45,487 bases of DNA from NCBI GenBank assembly GCA_030840445.1, contig JAVEEN010000152.1, forward strand, positions 1 through 45,487. Reading direction: 5' to 3'. Origin of the DNA: Pseudonocardiales bacterium. GTDB lineage: Bacteria > Actinomycetota > Actinomycetes > Mycobacteriales > Jatrophihabitantaceae. A model generated the notes under the pieces. The model had not been told where the DNA came from. It worked only from the letters and a program-made list of their open reading frames with translations, and made no database searches. Below are positions 10,941-35,411 of this stretch, in pieces. Made by a program: the position numbers and the translations under genes. Positions within the stretch are counted from its first letter, which is position 1; every line of letters starts with the position of its first letter.

Positions 10941-11267
10941 GCGGAAAATCGGCTCCTCTCAGCTCGGCTCGTGCATCGGCCGTTGTCGTAATCATCGGAT
11001 AATGAATCCAGTTTGGCAAGACCTGCTCACCAACTCGCAGGCTGCGCCGCTCATATTTTCACCCGCGAAACAATCATGTAACTGATCCCCCGGTGTGGCG
11101 CTGCGGCTTTGCTAAGGATTCATCGCCAGTGCAGCATCCACCCGGTGCTAGCCCGGACTCGCGTCGCGGGTGGCCCGGTTCGCCAAGACTGCATTTTGGA
11201 TGCGATTATGTTCGGTAGGCGTCGAGCCGGGCAGCACAAGAGCGCCGTCACCGAAACAGGAGTCCAC
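10941..11267. promoter_or_regulatory. Divergent intergenic region between the ABC importer and fbiC
   Basis: These 327 bases separate the divergent importer operon and fbiC and so must hold both promoters. The stretch around 10990-11070 is less GC-rich than the surroundings (TAATCATCGGATAATGAATCC and similar), a likely promoter location, but I cannot place boxes with confidence. A CTGAGAGGAG string sits just before the permease. I checked for a thiamine riboswitch and found no matching second conserved half. The fbiC frame is open back to 11109, but that part looks non-coding. Confidence 0.4.
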
Positions 11268-13844
11268 ATGACTGAGCACGATGGCCACTCATCCGATCGT
11301 CCGGCAACTGATCCCGGCGGCGTATCGGGAAGCACGCACGCCATGCGGAGGGCCCTGGCACGGGCGGCGAGCGGGAAGTCGCTCAGCCGTGACGAGCTGA
11401 TCGTCCTGATCCAGGCCCGCGATGACGACCTCGACGCGCTGTGTCGGCATGCCGGGCGAATCCGCGATCAGGGTCTGCTCGAGCTGGGCCGGCCGGCAAC
11501 TATCACCTATAGCCCGAAGGTCTTCATCCCGTTGACCCGGCTGTGCCGGGATCGTTGCCACTACTGCACGTTCGCCACGGTGCCCGGCCGGCTGTCCGAA
11601 CCCTACCTAAGTATCAGCGAGGTAGTCGAGATCGCCAGGCAAGGCGCTGCACTGGGCTGCAAGGAAGCTCTGTTCACCTTGGGTGACCGCCCGGAGGACC
11701 GCTGGCCCCAGGCCAAGCAGTGGCTGGACCAGGCGGGCTACGACGACACGTTGTCCTATGTGCGCGCCTGTGCCGTCGCTGTGTTGGAGGAAACCGGGCT
11801 GCTGCCACACCTCAATCCCGGGGTCATGAGCTGGAGTGAACTGCAGCGACTCAAGCCGGTTGCCGCGTCGATGGGGATGATGCTCGAGACGACGGCCGAG
11901 ATTCCGGCACATAGCGGCAGCCCGGACAAGGTCCCCGCGGTTCGGCTGCGAGTACTGGAGGACGCCGGCCGGCATGCCATCCCGTTCACCACCGGCTTGC
12001 TGGTCGGCATCGGTGAGAGCCCCGGCGACCGAGTGGACACGATCAACGAGATCCGTGCCAGCCATCGCAGGCACGGCCACATTCAAGAGGTTATCGTCCA
12101 GAACTTCCGCGCCAAGACCGACACTGCCATGCGCGCTACCCCTGATGCAGACCTGTCGGAATTCCTGGCGACCGTCGCGGTGACCCGCATCGTGCTCGGC
12201 TCGCGGATGCGCATCCAGGCGCCGCCCAACCTGGTCGACATCGCTGAGACGGGATTGCTGATCGGTGCGGGTATCGACGACTGGGGTGGCGTGTCACCGT
12301 TGACGCCGGACCACGTCAACCCTGAGCGGCCCTGGCCGGATCTCGGGGTGCTCGCCGACGCGAGCCGGGCGGCGGGCTTCACGCTCAGACCTCGGCTGAC
12401 CGTCTACCCGCCGTACCTCGGCGAGCCGTGGCTTGATCCTCGAATATTCCCGCACGTCAGCGCATTGGCCGACGAGGACGGTCTAGCAGCCGACGTCCTA
12501 CCCGCCGGCATCGCCTGGCAGGAGGTCGACGACGCGTTGACCGATACTGGTAGAACCGACCTGCACCGAAGTATCGACACCGAGGGACGACGGCAGCGCG
12601 CCCGCGGGGACATGGATGAGGTGTACGGGGACTGGACCGCCATCAAGGACAGCATTCCGGCACCGATTGCCCGGTTGGACAGCGACGTGCTGCAGGCGTT
12701 ACGAGTCGCATCCTCTGATCCCACAAAACTTACGGACGCCCAATCACTCGATCTGATGATCGCCGAAGGCCCGGCACTCGAGGCGCTGTGCCGGCTCGCC
12801 GACGAGGTGCGGCGGGATGTCGTCGGCAATGATGTCACCTTCGTCGTCAACCGGAACATCAACTTCACCAACGTGTGCTACACCGGCTGTCGGTTCTGCG
12901 CGTTCGCTCAGCGCCGCACCGACGAGGACGCGTATTCGCTGTCTCTAGACGAGGTCGCTCATCGCGCCCGTGAGGCCTGGGACGTCGGGGCTACTGAGAT
13001 ATGCATGCAGGGGGGTATAGATCCGAGGTTGTCCGGTGAGGACTATCTCGAACTGGTGCGCGCGGTGAAGCGGGGCGCACCCCAGATCCACCTGCATGCC
13101 TTCAGTCCGATGGAAGTCGTCAACGCCGCCGCGCGATCAGCCCTGTCGATCGAGGAATTCCTCATCGCGGCCCGGGAGGCCGGTGTCGACTCGCTGCCCG
13201 GCACTGCAGCCGAGATCTTGGACGACGAGGTTCGCTGGGTATTGACCAAGGGAAAATTGCCCACCGCACAGTGGATCGAGGTGGTCACGACCGCACACCG
13301 CGTGGGCATTCCGACGACCAGCACGATGATGTACGGCCATGTGGACCAGCCGGAACACTGGGTTGCCCATCTGCGGTTGCTGGCCCGGTTGCAGTCAGAA
13401 TCCGGTGGCTTCACCGAGTTCGTGCCACTGCCTTTCGTCCACACCAGCGCGCCGCTCTATCTGGCTGGGGTCGCCCGGCCAGGCCCGACTGTTCGGGACA
13501 ACCGCGCGGTGCATGCGATGGCCCGGCTGATCCTGCACGGCCAGATCGACCACATCCAATGCTCCTGGGTCAAACTCGGTGTAGACCAATGCCACACCGT
13601 GCTCACCGGCGGCGTCGATGATCTCGGCGGCACCCTGATGGAGGAGACGATCAGCCGGATGGCCGGCTCGCAGCATGGCTCACGCAAGTCCGTCGAGGAT
13701 CTCGAGGCCATGGTGCGAGCGGTGGGCCGGACCCCACGGCAACGATCCACGACGTACGGAGTTGTGCCTGACGAGCGCCTGGCCGCCGCCCGGCGCGAGG
13801 AGAACAGTCACCACTCGCTGACACTGCTGCCCGTTCTGCGATAG
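11268..13844 (+). CDS. fbiC: Bifunctional FO synthase (CofG-CofH fusion)
   Basis: This 858-aa fused radical-SAM enzyme makes FO, the deazaflavin core of coenzyme F420, from 5-amino-6-ribitylaminouracil and tyrosine. The N-terminal CofG-like half has the 4Fe-4S motif CRDRCHYC (Cys93, Cys97, Cys100). The C-terminal CofH-like half has CYTGCRFC (Cys537, Cys541, Cys544). Length equals mycobacterial FbiC (about 856 aa). The ATG at 11268 follows an AACAGGAG box; the frame runs further upstream without coding character. It converges on the membrane-protein pair with only 15 nt between stops. Tyrosine, one substrate, is what the HPD/FAH operon 8 kb away destroys. Confidence 0.96.
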
Positions 13845-30706: not shown

Positions 30707-31474
30707 TCACAGGCCTGCCGCGACCGCGGCGCCCTGCAACACGTCCGCGAGCATCGCCGGGGTCAGCCGCCCGGTGAAGGTGTTCTGCTGACTCACGTGA
30801 TAGCACCCGATCAGCTCGAGCGTCGCAGGTCCGTCCGAGTCATCGCAATCCCGCTCCAGCAGGTAGCGCGCTCCGTGACCGAATCGGGGTTGCGGCACCG
30901 GAATGGACCATCCCGCCGCGGAAAGCACGGGCAGCAGCGCCTGCCAGCCGAAGCGTCCGAGCACCACCACACACCGCAGCGTGGGACGCAACAACCCGAG
31001 CTCCTGGGCCAGCCACGGCCGGCAAGTATCGCGCTCGCTCGGAGTCGGCTTGTTGGCCGGCGGCGCACACCGCACCGGCGCGGTGATGCGTACGCCCCGC
31101 AGCGTGAGATCGTCATCGCGGCTTTCGCTCACCGGCTGCGACGCTAAGCCCACAGCATGCAAGGCGGCGAACAGTACCGCGCCAGAACGGTCTCCGGTGA
31201 ACATCCTGCCAGTGCGATTTGCCCCATGAGCGGCTGGAGCCAGCCCGACGATGGCTAGGGGCGCGTCGGCCGGCCCGAATCCGGGGACCGGCTTGGCCCA
31301 GTAATCCCAATCCCGATAGGCAGCTCGCCGGATCACGGCCACCTCCTCCCGCCACTCCACCAACCGCGGGCAGGCACGACACGTCACGACCGCCTCGTCC
31401 AGTTCAGCCAGGGACAGGCACCGCTCGCTGAGAAGGGCGGGGTAATCGGCTCGTTCAGTCGACTGATCAGGCAT
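30707..31474 (-). CDS. udgB: Type-5 uracil-DNA glycosylase (UdgB)
   Basis: This 255-aa iron-sulfur DNA repair enzyme excises uracil and some other deaminated bases. The motif GLAPAAHGANRTGRMFTGDR (77-96) is the family-5 active-site signature, and CYHVSQQNTFTGRLT near residue 233 is the DNA-intercalating motif. Cys32 and Cys35 in CRACP, with later Cys residues in VRCAPP and DTCRPW, fit the 4Fe-4S cluster. The frame extends 63 codons upstream, but the ATG at 31472-31474 starts family homology and overlaps the kinase stop by 8 nt. It is last in the soxR-PPOX-pfkB-udgB minus-strand run. High-GC actinobacteria typically carry this class. Confidence 0.93.
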   Translation of the reverse strand: MPDQSTERADYPALLSERCLSLAELDEAVVTCRACPRLVEWREEVAVIRRAAYRDWDYWAKPVPGFGPADAPLAIVGLAPAAHGANRTGRMFTGDRSGAVLFAALHAVGLASQPVSESRDDDLTLRGVRITAPVRCAPPANKPTPSERDTCRPWLAQELGLLRPTLRCVVVLGRFGWQALLPVLSAAGWSIPVPQPRFGHGARYLLERDCDDSDGPATLELIGCYHVSQQNTFTGRLTPAMLADVLQGAAVAAGL

Positions 31475-32516
31475 CGCTGGTACGAGCGATGGTCGCGCTC
31501 GCTCGCCGGACCGCCCGGACCGGCTCGTCCCCGATTGCCGCGTCGAGGAAGTCGTAACTGTGCAGCAGCACGGTTGCGGCGCGCGATCCCGCCCGGGCCA
31601 GCTCGGAGACTTGAGCCAGCCAGTCGGCGAGGTCGCCCCACCCGGGCGCGGCAAGGGAGCCACCCACCTGCTGCACGGACAACGCCGCGCAGAGATTGGC
31701 GAAGGCCATCCGCTGCCTCAGGGGCCAGCCACGCAAAGTGCCGAGGACGAAGGAGGCCGCGAACACGTCACCGGCTCCGGTGGCGTCGACGGCATTCACC
31801 GGCAAGGACGGCACCCATTCCTCCTCGCCGCTGATCGAGTCGATGCCGATCGAGCCCTGTCCACCACAGGTGACCACCACGACCGGAACATCATCGGCCA
31901 ACGCCATCAGCGCCGCCCGCGGATCGTCGGTACGGGTATAGGCCATTGCCTCGGCACTGTTCGGTAGAAACGCATGCAGGTCCGCCAGCTGTTGCAGCAC
32001 CATCGGCGACCACTCCTGCGTCGGGTCCCAGCCGACGTCACCGAACAGTTTCATGCCGGTCGCGCTGGCGTGCGCTACCCACGGTTCCGCATTCTCGCCG
32101 AGGTGCACGACTCCGGCCAGGGCGCTCGGCGGACTCGATATCAACTTGCTGGTCGGGATCGGTGACGGGTGACTATGCGTGACCATAGCCCGATCTCGTT
32201 GAACGGCAAGGGAAACCGTAACCGGTGAGTGCCAGTGGGCGATCCGCTGTGAGAGTGAGAGATCGACTCCCTCCTGCTCGGCGAGCGTCCGCCACAGGAA
32301 GTCACCGTAGACGTCGTCGCCGAACGTCGCGGCCAGGGCCGTCCGCATCCCGAGCCGGCTGGCCGCAACGGCGAGGTTGGCGATGCCCCCCGGACAGGAT
32401 CCCATGCCGTCGGCGAGTGACTCGGTGCCGCTGGTCGGCAACGCAGGCAGCCCGGTAAGCACGATGTCGAAGAACACGGTGCCTTGCATGACCACGTCGA
32501 AGTCCGTGTCGGTCAC
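31467..32516 (-). CDS. PfkB family carbohydrate/nucleoside kinase
   Basis: This 349-aa ribokinase-fold kinase has the N-terminal substrate-binding motif GGIANLAVAASRLG (43-56) and the C-terminal signature DATGAGDVFAASF (244-256) with catalytic Asp250 and the anion hole. The substrate (ribose, fructose, nucleoside or another sugar) cannot be told from motifs. The last 60 residues extend beyond the usual fold with a helix rich in Ala and Arg. It begins 13 nt after the PPOX stop and overlaps udgB by 8 nt, so all three are probably co-transcribed. Its place next to a base-excision enzyme suggests a nucleoside or base-salvage substrate, but that is inference. Confidence 0.88.
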   Translation of the reverse strand: MTDTDFDVVMQGTVFFDIVLTGLPALPTSGTESLADGMGSCPGGIANLAVAASRLGMRTALAATFGDDVYGDFLWRTLAEQEGVDLSLSQRIAHWHSPVTVSLAVQRDRAMVTHSHPSPIPTSKLISSPPSALAGVVHLGENAEPWVAHASATGMKLFGDVGWDPTQEWSPMVLQQLADLHAFLPNSAEAMAYTRTDDPRAALMALADDVPVVVVTCGGQGSIGIDSISGEEEWVPSLPVNAVDATGAGDVFAASFVLGTLRGWPLRQRMAFANLCAALSVQQVGGSLAAPGWGDLADWLAQVSELARAGSRAATVLLHSYDFLDAAIGDEPVRAVRRASATIARTSDA

Positions 32517-32529
32517 GGCGATCGCCTAC

Positions 32530-32925
32530 TCACGTCAGCCCCAGCACCCGATCGACAACGAACTCGATGACCACCCGAGCCGGATTCTCCCTAGGCTGAC
32601 GGTAACGCTCGGCATAGCGGCGCTCGGCCTCGGCCACCGAATCCCGGTCGGTCCGGATCACCGCCATCCCCTCCAAGGTTGACCAGCGTCGACCGTCCAC
32701 CTGGCAGACCGCGACCCTGGTCGGCCCACCGGCGTCGGCCACGTTGCGCGCCTTACGGGAAGACCCGGAGCAGATCACTCGAGCCAGTCTGCTCGTCGCG
32801 TCGAACGTCACACCGACCGGCACGACGTGCGGTGAACCGTCCGGGCGCCGGGTCGTCAAGGTCGCGAGATGCCGCTCGGCCCAGAACGTGCGGAACTGCG
32901 CAGACAAGTCATCGAGTGAGGCCAC
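32530..32925 (-). CDS. PPOX-class F420-dependent oxidoreductase
   Basis: This 131-aa split-beta-barrel flavin/deazaflavin-binding protein belongs to the FDOR-B group. The pattern LATLTTRRPDGSPHVVPVGVTFD, then SGSSRKARNVADAGGPTRVAVCQVDGRRWSTLEGMAVI, is typical of small F420-dependent reductases, with the Lys/Arg-rich turn (GSSRKARN) contacting the cofactor phosphate. It probably works as a dimer. It fits the F420 genes at 4705-6356 and 11268. It is 54 nt downstream of soxR and followed closely by pfkB. Its substrate is unknown; a quinone, biliverdin-like or redox-cycling compound would suit the SoxR context. Confidence 0.87.
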   Translation of the reverse strand: MASLDDLSAQFRTFWAERHLATLTTRRPDGSPHVVPVGVTFDATSRLARVICSGSSRKARNVADAGGPTRVAVCQVDGRRWSTLEGMAVIRTDRDSVAEAERRYAERYRQPRENPARVVIEFVVDRVLGLT

Positions 32926-32979
32926 GTTGCTCCCAGCGTAGGTAGGACGGCTGTCGGCATCCAGCCTGCCATGCCAGCG

Positions 32980-33453
32980 TCAGTCTGCGTCAGTACCGCG
33001 ACGCAGCAGGGCCGGCAGGAACACCGCGCCGCCGGAGGGAACCAACGACGCCGCCACATCGTCAGGGTTGGACATCGAGCAGGATTGCAGCGACAGACAG
33101 CCGCAGCCGATACACGAATCGAGGCCGTCTCGCAGGGCCTGCAACGCGGCGATCTGATCATCGAGGCGGTGCCGCCAGTTGCGGGAGATCCGGGTCCAGT
33201 CGGCCTTGGTCGGCGTCCGGGACTCCGGTAGCCGTTTCAGCTCCTCGCGGACCTCGTCCAAGGTCAGCCCCACGTTTCGCGCGGCCCGGATGAAGGCCAG
33301 TCGCCGTAACACCGTGCGCTGGTACCGGCGCTGCCCTCCCCCGGTCCGAGCGGCCCGCACCAGGCCCTCGCGCTCGTAGTAGCGAAGCGCCGAGGCCGCG
33401 AAACCGCTGCGGCGGGCCACCTCCGAAACCGTCAACACTGGATTGGTGTCCAT
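32980..33453 (-). CDS. soxR: Redox-sensing MerR-family regulator SoxR
   Basis: This 157-aa homodimeric activator carries a [2Fe-2S] cluster. The MerR helix-turn-helix (LTVSEVARRSGFAASALRYYEREGL, about 7-31) is followed by a dimerisation helix and the SoxR-specific cluster motif CIGCGC...C (Cys114, Cys117, Cys119, Cys125). Actinobacterial SoxR senses redox-active metabolites more than superoxide. I chose the ATG at 33451-33453; the frame is open 18 codons further, but that part would run into the operator. It is divergent from the SDR gene, with a SoxR-like box 20-35 nt upstream of its start, so autoregulation is likely. Confidence 0.93.
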   Translation of the reverse strand: MDTNPVLTVSEVARRSGFAASALRYYEREGLVRAARTGGGQRRYQRTVLRRLAFIRAARNVGLTLDEVREELKRLPESRTPTKADWTRISRNWRHRLDDQIAALQALRDGLDSCIGCGCLSLQSCSMSNPDDVAASLVPSGGAVFLPALLRRGTDAD

Positions 33454-33467
33454 ATCACCAAGGTTAC

Positions 33468-33498
33468 TTGACTTGAAGTTGACTTCAACTTTAAGAAT
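33468..33498 (+). promoter_or_regulatory. SoxR-type promoter and operator of the SDR operon
   Basis: TTGAAGTTGACTTCAA at 33473-33488 has two 7-bp arms (TTGAAGT and ACTTCAA) around a 2-bp centre. It lies between a -35-like TTGACT (33468-33473) and a -10-like AAGAAT (33493-33498) with a 19-bp spacer, the overlong spacing MerR-family activators correct by bending DNA. Its layout matches known SoxR boxes, which pair CTCAAGTT with AACTTGAG. The box also lies just upstream of soxR on the other strand. Confidence 0.75.
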
Positions 33499-33528
33499 AG
33501 GACGCATCGCGTCCCGTTGGAGGTAGTC

Positions 33529-34323
33529 ATGCCTGTCGCTCTCATCACCGGGGCCTCGTCCGGACTCGGTCGAGCTCTGGCCGTGGCCCTGGCCCGGCGG
33601 GGTTGGGCCCTGGTTCTGGACGCCCGCACCCCGCAGCCGCTTTACAAGCTCGTCGATGAGCTGGCCGCCCTCACGGTCGTCAACGCCATTGCCGGGGATG
33701 TGTCACTGGCGGACCACCGGCACGATCTCGGTCAGGCCGTTCAGGCCGCGGGAGGATTGGACCTGCTGATCAACAACGCCAGTACCTTGGGACCGACTCC
33801 GTTGCCCTCGCTGGCAGAGCTGGCTCTGGCCTCGTTCGACGAGATCCTGCAGGTCAACCTCTTGGCTCCACTGGGCCTGATCCAACAGCTCCTGCCCCAG
33901 TTGGCCGATGACGCTGCCGTGGTCAACATCTCCTCGGATGCGGCCAGGGCCAGCTATCCAGGCTGGGGTGGTTACGGCGCCGCGAAGGCGGCTCTCGACC
34001 ACCTCACGGCCACCCTGGGCCAAGAAAACCCCGCCCAACGGTGGTACGCCGTCGATCCCGGGGACATGCGGACCCCGATGCACCAGGCGGCCTTTCCCGG
34101 TGAGGACATCAGTGACCGGCCCGACCCAGCGACGGTCGTCCCGGCCATGCTCAACCTGCTCGAACGCCGACCACCCAGCGGCCGATATCGGGCGGCCGAC
34201 TTCGAACCGACCTCGACCACCGATGCCGGTGCGGCTGCCGATGCCGGTGCGGCTGCCGGTGCGGCTGCCGATGCCGATGCCGATGCCGACGAGAGCTATG
34301 CCCTGGGAAACACGTCGCGATGA
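33529..34323 (+). CDS. Short-chain dehydrogenase/reductase with repetitive C-terminal tail
   Basis: This 264-aa NAD(P)-dependent oxidoreductase has the Rossmann motif TGASSGLG (7-14), the NNAS motif near residue 82, and the catalytic Ser in NISSDAA with YGAAK (Tyr and Lys) near 149. The Arg/Thr residues after the second strand (LDARTP) hint at NADPH preference. The last 35 residues are a low-complexity Ala/Asp/Gly tail encoded by tandem repeats and are not part of the fold. The ATG at 33529 has a perfect GGAGG five bases before it. It overlaps the QueA-like gene by ATGA and sits behind a SoxR-type promoter, so it is probably redox-induced. Confidence 0.9.
   Translation: MPVALITGASSGLGRALAVALARRGWALVLDARTPQPLYKLVDELAALTVVNAIAGDVSLADHRHDLGQAVQAAGGLDLLINNASTLGPTPLPSLAELALASFDEILQVNLLAPLGLIQQLLPQLADDAAVVNISSDAARASYPGWGGYGAAKAALDHLTATLGQENPAQRWYAVDPGDMRTPMHQAAFPGEDISDRPDPATVVPAMLNLLERRPPSGRYRAADFEPTSTTDAGAAADAGAAAGAAADADADADESYALGNTSR
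34222..34287 (+). repeat. Tandem repeats at the 3' end of the SDR gene
   Basis: GATGCCGGTGCGGCTGCC occurs twice in a row (34222-34257), then its last 12 bases once more, then GATGCC three times. All are in frame and encode an Ala/Gly/Asp tail. The run is prone to copy-number change by slippage, in multiples of six bases, so it would alter tail length without breaking the frame or the coupling to the next gene. Confidence 0.85.
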
Positions 34324-35411
34324 CGGCCGTACCCGAAACCCGATTCGACCTACCCGACGAGCTGACTGCCACCGAGCCCGCCGAACATCGCGGGCTGGCC
34401 CGTGACGGCGTCCGCCTCCTGGTCGCCGGATCGAGCGGTATCACACACTCCACTTTCAGCCGTCTCGACGAATACCTCGTGCCCGGTGATCTCGTGGTCG
34501 TCAACACCTCGCAGACCATTGCGGCCGAGATCGACGGCGTCCGCAGCGACGGCTGGCCGACCGTCCTGCACATCGCAACCGAGCTGGACGACGGGAGCTG
34601 GGTTGTCGAGTTGCGGACGGCACCGCACGCCGTCAAGCCGATCCTCGACGGCCGGGCAGGTGAGGTGATCCGCCTTTCGCATGCGGTGCGGATGCGATTA
34701 CTCGAACCCTATCCGGCCCCGGGCGGTTCGCCCACCGGCCGGGGCAGCCGGCTGTGGCGGGTGCAGGTGATCAGCTCACGACCGATGTCGGCGCACCTGT
34801 CGCGACACGGCCGTCCGATCAGCTACGGCTACCTCAGCCGGCAATGGCCGCTCTCGGACTACCAGACAATCTTCGGAAAGGATCCGGGCAGCGCGGAGAT
34901 GCCCAGCGCGGGCCGTCCCTTCAGTCCCGAACTTGTGCTCAGGCTGCTTACCGCCGGGATCACGATCGCCCCGATCACCTTGCACACCGGGGTGTCCTCC
35001 CAAGTTGCCGGCGAGCCGCCGCAGGCCGAGCGGTTCACGGTCCCGGTCGTCACGGCCCGGCTGGTCAATTCAGCCACGCGGGTGGGCTCGCGCGTCGTCG
35101 CGGTGGGTACGACAGTCACCCGCGCGCTCGAATCCGCGGTGACCGGGGACGGCTCGGTGCAGGCGAGCCAGGGCTGGACGGATCTGGTGCTGGGGCCGCA
35201 GCATCCGGTGCAGGTGGTGACCGGCTTGATCACCGGTCTGCACAATCCCGACGCATCTCACCTGCTGCTGGTGGAGTCGGTGGCCGGGGCAGAGGTGGCG
35301 CAGCGAGCGTACGACGCGGCGGTGGCCGAGCGTTATCTGTGGCACGAGTTCGGCGACAGCTGCCTGCTACTCCCCCGCCGGGTGTCCGCGCAAGGCAGCA
35401 CCGGAGGATGA
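34320..35411 (+). CDS. QueA-family S-adenosylmethionine ribosyltransferase-isomerase-like protein
   Basis: This 363-aa protein carries the QueA landmarks: FDLPDELTATEPAEHRG at the N-terminus, YLVPGDLVVVNTSQTI near residue 55, ISYGYLSRQWPLSDYQTIFGKDPGSAEMPSAGRPFSP near 165-200, ITLHTGVSS and AVGTTVTRALES. QueA transfers a ribosyl group from SAM to preQ1 in tRNA, the penultimate step of queuosine synthesis. No other queuosine gene (tgt, queC-F, queG) is in the window, and some motifs are altered (NTSQTI for the usual NDTRVI), so the substrate may differ. It is coupled by ATGA to the SDR, behind the SoxR-type promoter. Confidence 0.85.
   Translation: MTAVPETRFDLPDELTATEPAEHRGLARDGVRLLVAGSSGITHSTFSRLDEYLVPGDLVVVNTSQTIAAEIDGVRSDGWPTVLHIATELDDGSWVVELRTAPHAVKPILDGRAGEVIRLSHAVRMRLLEPYPAPGGSPTGRGSRLWRVQVISSRPMSAHLSRHGRPISYGYLSRQWPLSDYQTIFGKDPGSAEMPSAGRPFSPELVLRLLTAGITIAPITLHTGVSSQVAGEPPQAERFTVPVVTARLVNSATRVGSRVVAVGTTVTRALESAVTGDGSVQASQGWTDLVLGPQHPVQVVTGLITGLHNPDASHLLLVESVAGAEVAQRAYDAAVAERYLWHEFGDSCLLLPRRVSAQGSTGG

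Follow-up and report, generated by a model that had tools for sequence, protein, structure and literature searches.

In the SoxR–SoxS system of Escherichia coli, soxR is orientated divergently to its target gene and the SoxR box is located within a 19-bp promoter spacer. QueA, the S-adenosylmethionine (SAM):tRNA ribosyltransferase-isomerase, acts after preQ1 has been incorporated into tRNA via TGT, and to our knowledge its chemistry, in which the ribose of SAM is moved or rearranged, is described for tRNA queuosine only. In Streptomyces coelicolor, the SoxR regulon comprises SCO7008, SCO4266, SCO2478, SCO1909, SCO1178, and SCO0320ext, which encode transporters and tailoring-type redox enzymes (PMC4146615). 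The locus presented here is located on contig JAVEEN010000152.1 of a Pseudonocardiales bacterium (45,487 nucleotides; the whole stretch is referred to as the window) and combines soxR with a divergent gene pair encoding an SDR oxidoreductase and a QueA-like enzyme. We consider it likely that these three genes belong together as an operon for detoxification or tailoring, which is activated by SoxR and has a chemistry other than that of queuosine.

The locus resembles the SoxR–SoxS system of E. coli in its divergent layout and its MerR-type promoter geometry, but the target is an enzyme pair instead of a second regulator. With the S. coelicolor regulon, it shares a SoxR with a box in the target promoters and redox or tailoring enzymes as targets (PMC4146615). 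The six S. coelicolor targets, however, do not include an SDR–QueA pair, and soxR of this organism is neither autoregulated nor adjacent to its targets, whereas in the window soxR and its one clear target are divergently orientated neighbors. The core features are the following:

32980–33453, minus strand: soxR, 157 amino acids, a [2Fe-2S] MerR-family redox sensor with a CX2CXCX5C motif (TIGR01950, 185.1 bits, cut-off 116.9)
33473–33488, no strand assigned: SoxR-type box TTGAAGTTGACTTCAA, a perfect 7+7 palindrome (half-sites TTGAAGT and ACTTCAA around a central TG, 0 mismatches)
33468–33498, plus strand: MerR-type promoter of the SDR–queA-like pair (−35 TTGACT at 33468–33473, 19-nt spacer with the box, −10 AAGAAT at 33493–33498)
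33529–34323, plus strand: SDR oxidoreductase, NAD(P)-binding, with YxxxK (PF00106; invariant residues; model pLDDT 90; structural matches to NADP-bound SDRs)
34320–35411, plus strand: QueA-like enzyme, 363 amino acids (PF02547, 241 bits; QueA fold with altered signature motifs)

The start codons of soxR and the SDR gene (ATG at 33453 and 33529, respectively) flank the box, which is situated 20–35 nt upstream of soxR, and the SDR and queA-like genes overlap by 4 nt. The 16-bp SoxR-like palindrome within a 19-bp spacer facing the SDR–QueA pair had been the core of the original prediction and was confirmed. The pattern of the box including the −35 element, with up to two mismatches, occurs at a single site in the 4.34-Mb genome (reversed control, 0). 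With up to three mismatches, the palindrome gave three matches in the window, where 0.33 would be expected by chance; two of these matches belong to the present site. The classical CCTCAAG box yielded only poor matches elsewhere, and the reversed control gave equally many. A standard sigma-70 promoter scan did not find a promoter, because it was restricted to spacers of 16 to 18 nt. The [2Fe-2S] ligand motif of the window's SoxR (P0001) is CIGCGCLSLQSC; a cysteine motif of this type was found in 91 of the 94 SoxR proteins of the module, and two of the three others represent a single locus truncated by a contig end. The SDR carries a repetitive Ala/Asp run at its C-terminus (from approximately residue 230), encoded by a GCx/GAx repeat at 34215–34300, which is modeled with low confidence and absent from most relatives.

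The conservation of the box in relatives, named as a check when the locus was first described, was pronounced. All 65 distinct SDR–QueA-like loci with adjacent soxR retain the box, the −35 and −10 elements, and the exact 19-bp spacing, and the best upstream match to TTGACYTNAAGYNNACTTNAA had 0–2 mismatches in each of them compared to 5–9 for shuffled upstream regions. TTGA is fixed with a single exception at one base, and the invariant A and T at positions 27 and 31 correspond to a −10 element (nAnnnT) exactly 19 nt from the −35 element. A chance palindrome was rejected on the basis of this conservation. On the soxR side of the box, the information content does not exceed 0.35 bits per position before the box edge and conserved promoter elements are lacking; this marks the box as a probable activator site of SDR–queA-like, and soxR, if it responds to the box at all, would be autoregulated. 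Among the 24 genomes of the window's family, a SoxR above the family cut-off and a QueA-like gene were found in exactly the same 15, which, owing to the physical linkage of both genes, do not represent independent events. Taken together with the 65 conserved promoters, SoxR very probably controls the SDR–QueA pair, as had been proposed. The same promoter is also present upstream of pairs without adjacent soxR (e.g., L036, L039, L048, L051, and L054), on which a soxR located elsewhere could act.

Across the Actinomycetota, SDR and QueA-like genes were adjacent in 126 of 126 loci, the sum of three partially overlapping samples (80 + 26 + 20). Nocardioides and Kribbella are among the cultivable genera with the module. 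In a protein-based scan for the closest QueA-like relatives, 80 loci of actinobacteria were obtained, all of which have the SDR gene directly upstream and 52 of which have a divergent soxR. Since this set is biased toward near relatives, an even class sample (SDR adjacent in 26/26 loci of the QueA family, divergent soxR in 15/26) and a phylum sample (20/20 and 7/20, respectively) were taken. The SoxR proteins of the module group strongly in the SoxR tree (4 changes vs. approximately 20 in shuffles). The congener G002 (L215, 5595–5968) has retained soxR only in fragments and queA-like only as its C-terminal part, and it lacks the SDR gene, while the neighboring gene for a PPOX-class reductase is intact; these remnants show the direction in which the module decays. 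Sequence common to G020 and a Jatrophihabitans record (L020, L042) suggests that the window's family is close to this genus. In G025 (L148, 5741–7282), a SoxR with 69% identity to that of the window is located beside an NAD-dependent epimerase-like gene instead of SDR–queA-like; the S. coelicolor target SCO1178 is of the same general kind as this epimerase-like gene.

The QueA-like protein adopts the two-domain fold of QueA along its whole length (model pLDDT 89.8; Foldseek E 5e-23 to 1yy3; Z 24.8–27.3 against the solved QueA structures 1wdi, 1vky, and 1yy3, with 272–287 residues aligned), but has an SDR partner in place of TGT and misses both main QueA equivalog thresholds (NF001140, 176.1 vs. 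324 bits; TIGR00113, 143.2 vs. 267.45 bits). Both proteins share 36 invariant positions, including the GTT-R-E and FGD motifs; 15 positions are fixed to a different residue in QueA-like, and 22 further positions are conserved in QueA only. Most of the 15 switches lie in the signature motifs, which change from AAPTAGLHF to AEMPSAGRPF, from TNFHLP to TGLHxP, and from YRF/FSFGD to YLWHEFGD; the switched residues include 193, 194, 196, 199, 200, 227, 306, 314, 340, 341, and 343. That some residues are kept while others have become newly fixed speaks for an enzyme that is active, presumably with a changed substrate. QueA-like and QueA form separate clades with a branch support of 100, and the PF02547 scores across the phylum fall into two groups: full-length true QueA reaches 340–471 bits, with a single fragment at 297, whereas QueA-like scores 277 bits or lower.

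The shared fold and the common GTT-R-E and FGD motifs would also be in accordance with a diverged but genuine queuosine enzyme, which acts on an imported precursor or on tRNA. This is highly improbable, because TGT, which must insert preQ1 before QueA can act, was present in all 78 true-QueA genomes of the phylum sample, mostly with tgt near queA, and in none of the 25 genomes with QueA-like only. Six genomes of this sample harbor both groups, with the true queA beside tgt and the QueA-like paralogue elsewhere. In the class sample of 118 genomes, 27 possess a QueA-family gene and 22 possess TGT, with no overlap (Fisher p = 0.003). TGT was not found in the window's own genome either, which is 92% complete. 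Matches of QueC strength were restricted to two genomes, both TGT-bearing; weaker QueC matches of 18–60 bits were interpreted as other ATP-pyrophosphatase-fold proteins and discarded. An ordinary queuosine gene was rejected on the basis of the TGT exclusion, and the QueA-family protein almost certainly operates outside queuosine or known tRNA chemistry. The possible tRNA chemistry earlier considered for it is disfavored by the absence of TGT, the missed cut-offs, and the switched signature residues. Several actinobacteria (G029, G042, G054, G062, G084, and others) display the reverse pattern, TGT without any QueA-family gene, which would suit the salvage of a base similar to queuine.

A QueA look-alike in bacteria unable to make queuosine points to undescribed chemistry switched on by redox-active drugs. 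In the mechanism we propose, SoxR would occupy the box within the over-long (19-bp) promoter spacer. Redox-active compounds would oxidize its [2Fe-2S] cluster, upon which the DNA would be remodeled and RNA polymerase would transcribe SDR–queA-like; this activation by oxidation is assumed by analogy to known SoxR biology. The SDR would oxidize or reduce an alcohol or carbonyl (fold searches matched it to a wide range of SDRs without pointing to a substrate), and the QueA-like enzyme, with its QueA fold and probably with SAM, would catalyze a non-queuosine transfer or cleavage. Its substrate would most likely be the redox-active inducer itself or a metabolite whose production the inducer elicits. 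The observed layout, the geometry and conservation of box and promoter, the co-occurrence of SoxR and QueA-like, the separation from QueA, and the absence of TGT and QueC form the basis of this proposal, to which we add the substrate and the detoxification role by inference. More tentatively, and with rather limited confidence, the QueA-like proteins may represent a new SAM-dependent class that moves a ribose-derived group to redox-active small molecules or otherwise modifies them, and that, in Actinomycetota as well as on Rhizobium plasmids, constitutes with the SDR a self-contained module for resistance to redox drugs under the control of SoxR.

Several points weigh against the proposed operon. 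The use of SAM by the QueA-like enzyme is deduced from its family only, and the genomes are sampled and related, so that the counts given here are not independent events. Many lineages (Streptomyces-like genomes and other classes) hold SDR–queA-like without soxR or box, and redox induction is therefore not essential to the role of the enzymes. The retention of the pair without soxR in many genomes, always as two genes, would also be expected if it produced a small metabolite (a signal, a cofactor, or a natural product) and SoxR only timed the synthesis, and in streptomycetes SoxR acts in stationary phase together with antibiotic production. Such a function seems rather unlikely, as a surrounding biosynthetic cluster is missing and the neighborhood comparison did not reveal a third conserved gene around SDR–queA-like across 132 loci.

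A SoxR-activated detoxification or tailoring operon is also consistent with the regulators encountered in other lineages. On Rhizobium plasmids, including p42f of Rhizobium etli CFN42 (RHE_RS29345–29355), an annotated soxR is divergent from an SDR and a QueA-family gene, with 0–1 mismatch in the box of the four loci read. Identities to the window proteins are 39%–44% for the SDR, 53% for SoxR, and 30%–31% for QueA-like. Phylogenetically, the QueA-like proteins of Rhizobium are separate from true QueA, but the tree does not place them clearly inside or outside the actinobacterial clade, so that the triad could result either from old common descent or from repeated assembly. In Actinomycetospora (L090, L100, L103, and L112; L103, 7072–7860), the divergent soxR is missing and queA-like is directly followed by a MerR-family gene, the product of which contains a TipAS domain for antibiotic recognition. 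The SDR promoter of this genus contains TTGAC, a different inverted repeat, and a −10 element at similar spacing. By family, TipA-type MerR proteins sense antibiotics, whereas SoxR senses redox compounds, and their boxes differ; a second, drug-type regulator would be in line with a function of the enzymes in dealing with small toxic compounds. A MerR gene near pairs without soxR was reliably detected only in these four Actinomycetospora loci, with one weak match in L082. In Amycolatopsis (L040, L043, L053, L056, and L067) and in L172 and L174, the SDR promoter carries another inverted repeat, of the CCTCnAGTAACGTAGAGG or CCTCAAGTTAGGTCGAGG type, with TTGAC ahead of it. On plasmid pRmeGR4a of Sinorhizobium meliloti GR4 (L200, 4890–10653), a further QueA-family homologue has genes for two radical SAM proteins and a diaminopimelate decarboxylase-like gene as neighbors, which may reflect another way in which the family is used outside queuosine synthesis.

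Three further genes follow soxR on the minus strand:

32530–32925, minus strand: PPOX-class flavin/F420 reductase, non-core (TIGR03618, 81.2 bits, cut-off 79.05)
31467–32516, minus strand: PfkB-family sugar/nucleoside kinase, non-core neighbor (PF00294)
30707–31474, minus strand: UdgB-like uracil-DNA glycosylase, non-core neighbor (PF03167, 84 bits)

The profile searches corroborated these gene calls, and the genes are separated by short gaps or overlaps in the order soxR–PPOX–PfkB–UdgB (54 nt, 13 nt, and an 8-nt overlap, respectively); the PfkB and UdgB genes (30707–32516) lie beyond the range originally given for the feature. The glycosylase is below the family 4 threshold (TIGR00758, 52.6 vs. 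125.3 bits), and the motifs GLAPAAHGANRTGR and HVSQQNTFTGRLT, judged by eye, suggest family 5 (UdgB). The use of F420 by the PPOX protein is plausible from its family assignment, and the host is equipped for F420 synthesis, with an FbiC-type gene at 11109–13844 of the window (cofH part, 530 bits). A second full FbiC copy is located on contig C324 of the same genome.

According to the original prediction, one SoxR box may govern both arms of a six-gene regulon, in which SDR–QueA would be linked to F420-dependent reduction, a PfkB kinase, and uracil repair. The short gaps of the left arm, the F420 made by the host, and the proximity of the box to soxR, which could allow autoregulation, are in its favor, as is the position of PPOX beside soxR in the five soxR-bearing genomes of the window's genus and two of a sister genus. 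This linkage is confined to these two genera, however, and PfkB–UdgB accompanies soxR–PPOX in no more than three genomes (that of the window, G004, and G005); the left arm is absent from all other families examined. Intact PPOX orthologues also persist in the congeners G001, G002, and G006, which lack soxR and the QueA-like gene apart from the debris in G002, and in G006 PfkB still follows PPOX. Of the divergent order, only the arm with SDR–QueA-like, often with soxR, proved to be widespread. The lack of a conserved promoter on the soxR side, the sparse linkage of PPOX and PfkB–UdgB, and the survival of PPOX without the module indicate that the box points at one arm, which makes a regulon of both arms improbable. 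PPOX–PfkB–UdgB is a local neighbor; the link of PPOX to SoxR is local, that of uracil repair rests on three genomes, and a co-transcription of soxR and PPOX is possible in the two genera.

The literature searched (SoxR with QueA, QueA-like proteins or paralogues, SoxR in actinobacteria or R. etli), in which subscription journals were thinly covered, did not contain an earlier description of a SoxR-driven SDR–QueA-like pair; the genes of the module are individually annotated in public records. SoxR, its box, and the promoter are ordinary parts, whereas it is unusual for SoxR to drive a strongly conserved gene pair that includes an orphan enzyme of the QueA family. The queA annotations in actinobacteria without TGT are misleading and do not constitute evidence of queuosine. 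A widespread and conserved relative of QueA that has no tie to queuosine and is connected to a sensor of redox drugs would represent a new enzyme function and, beyond transporters and classical redox enzymes, a new output of SoxR.

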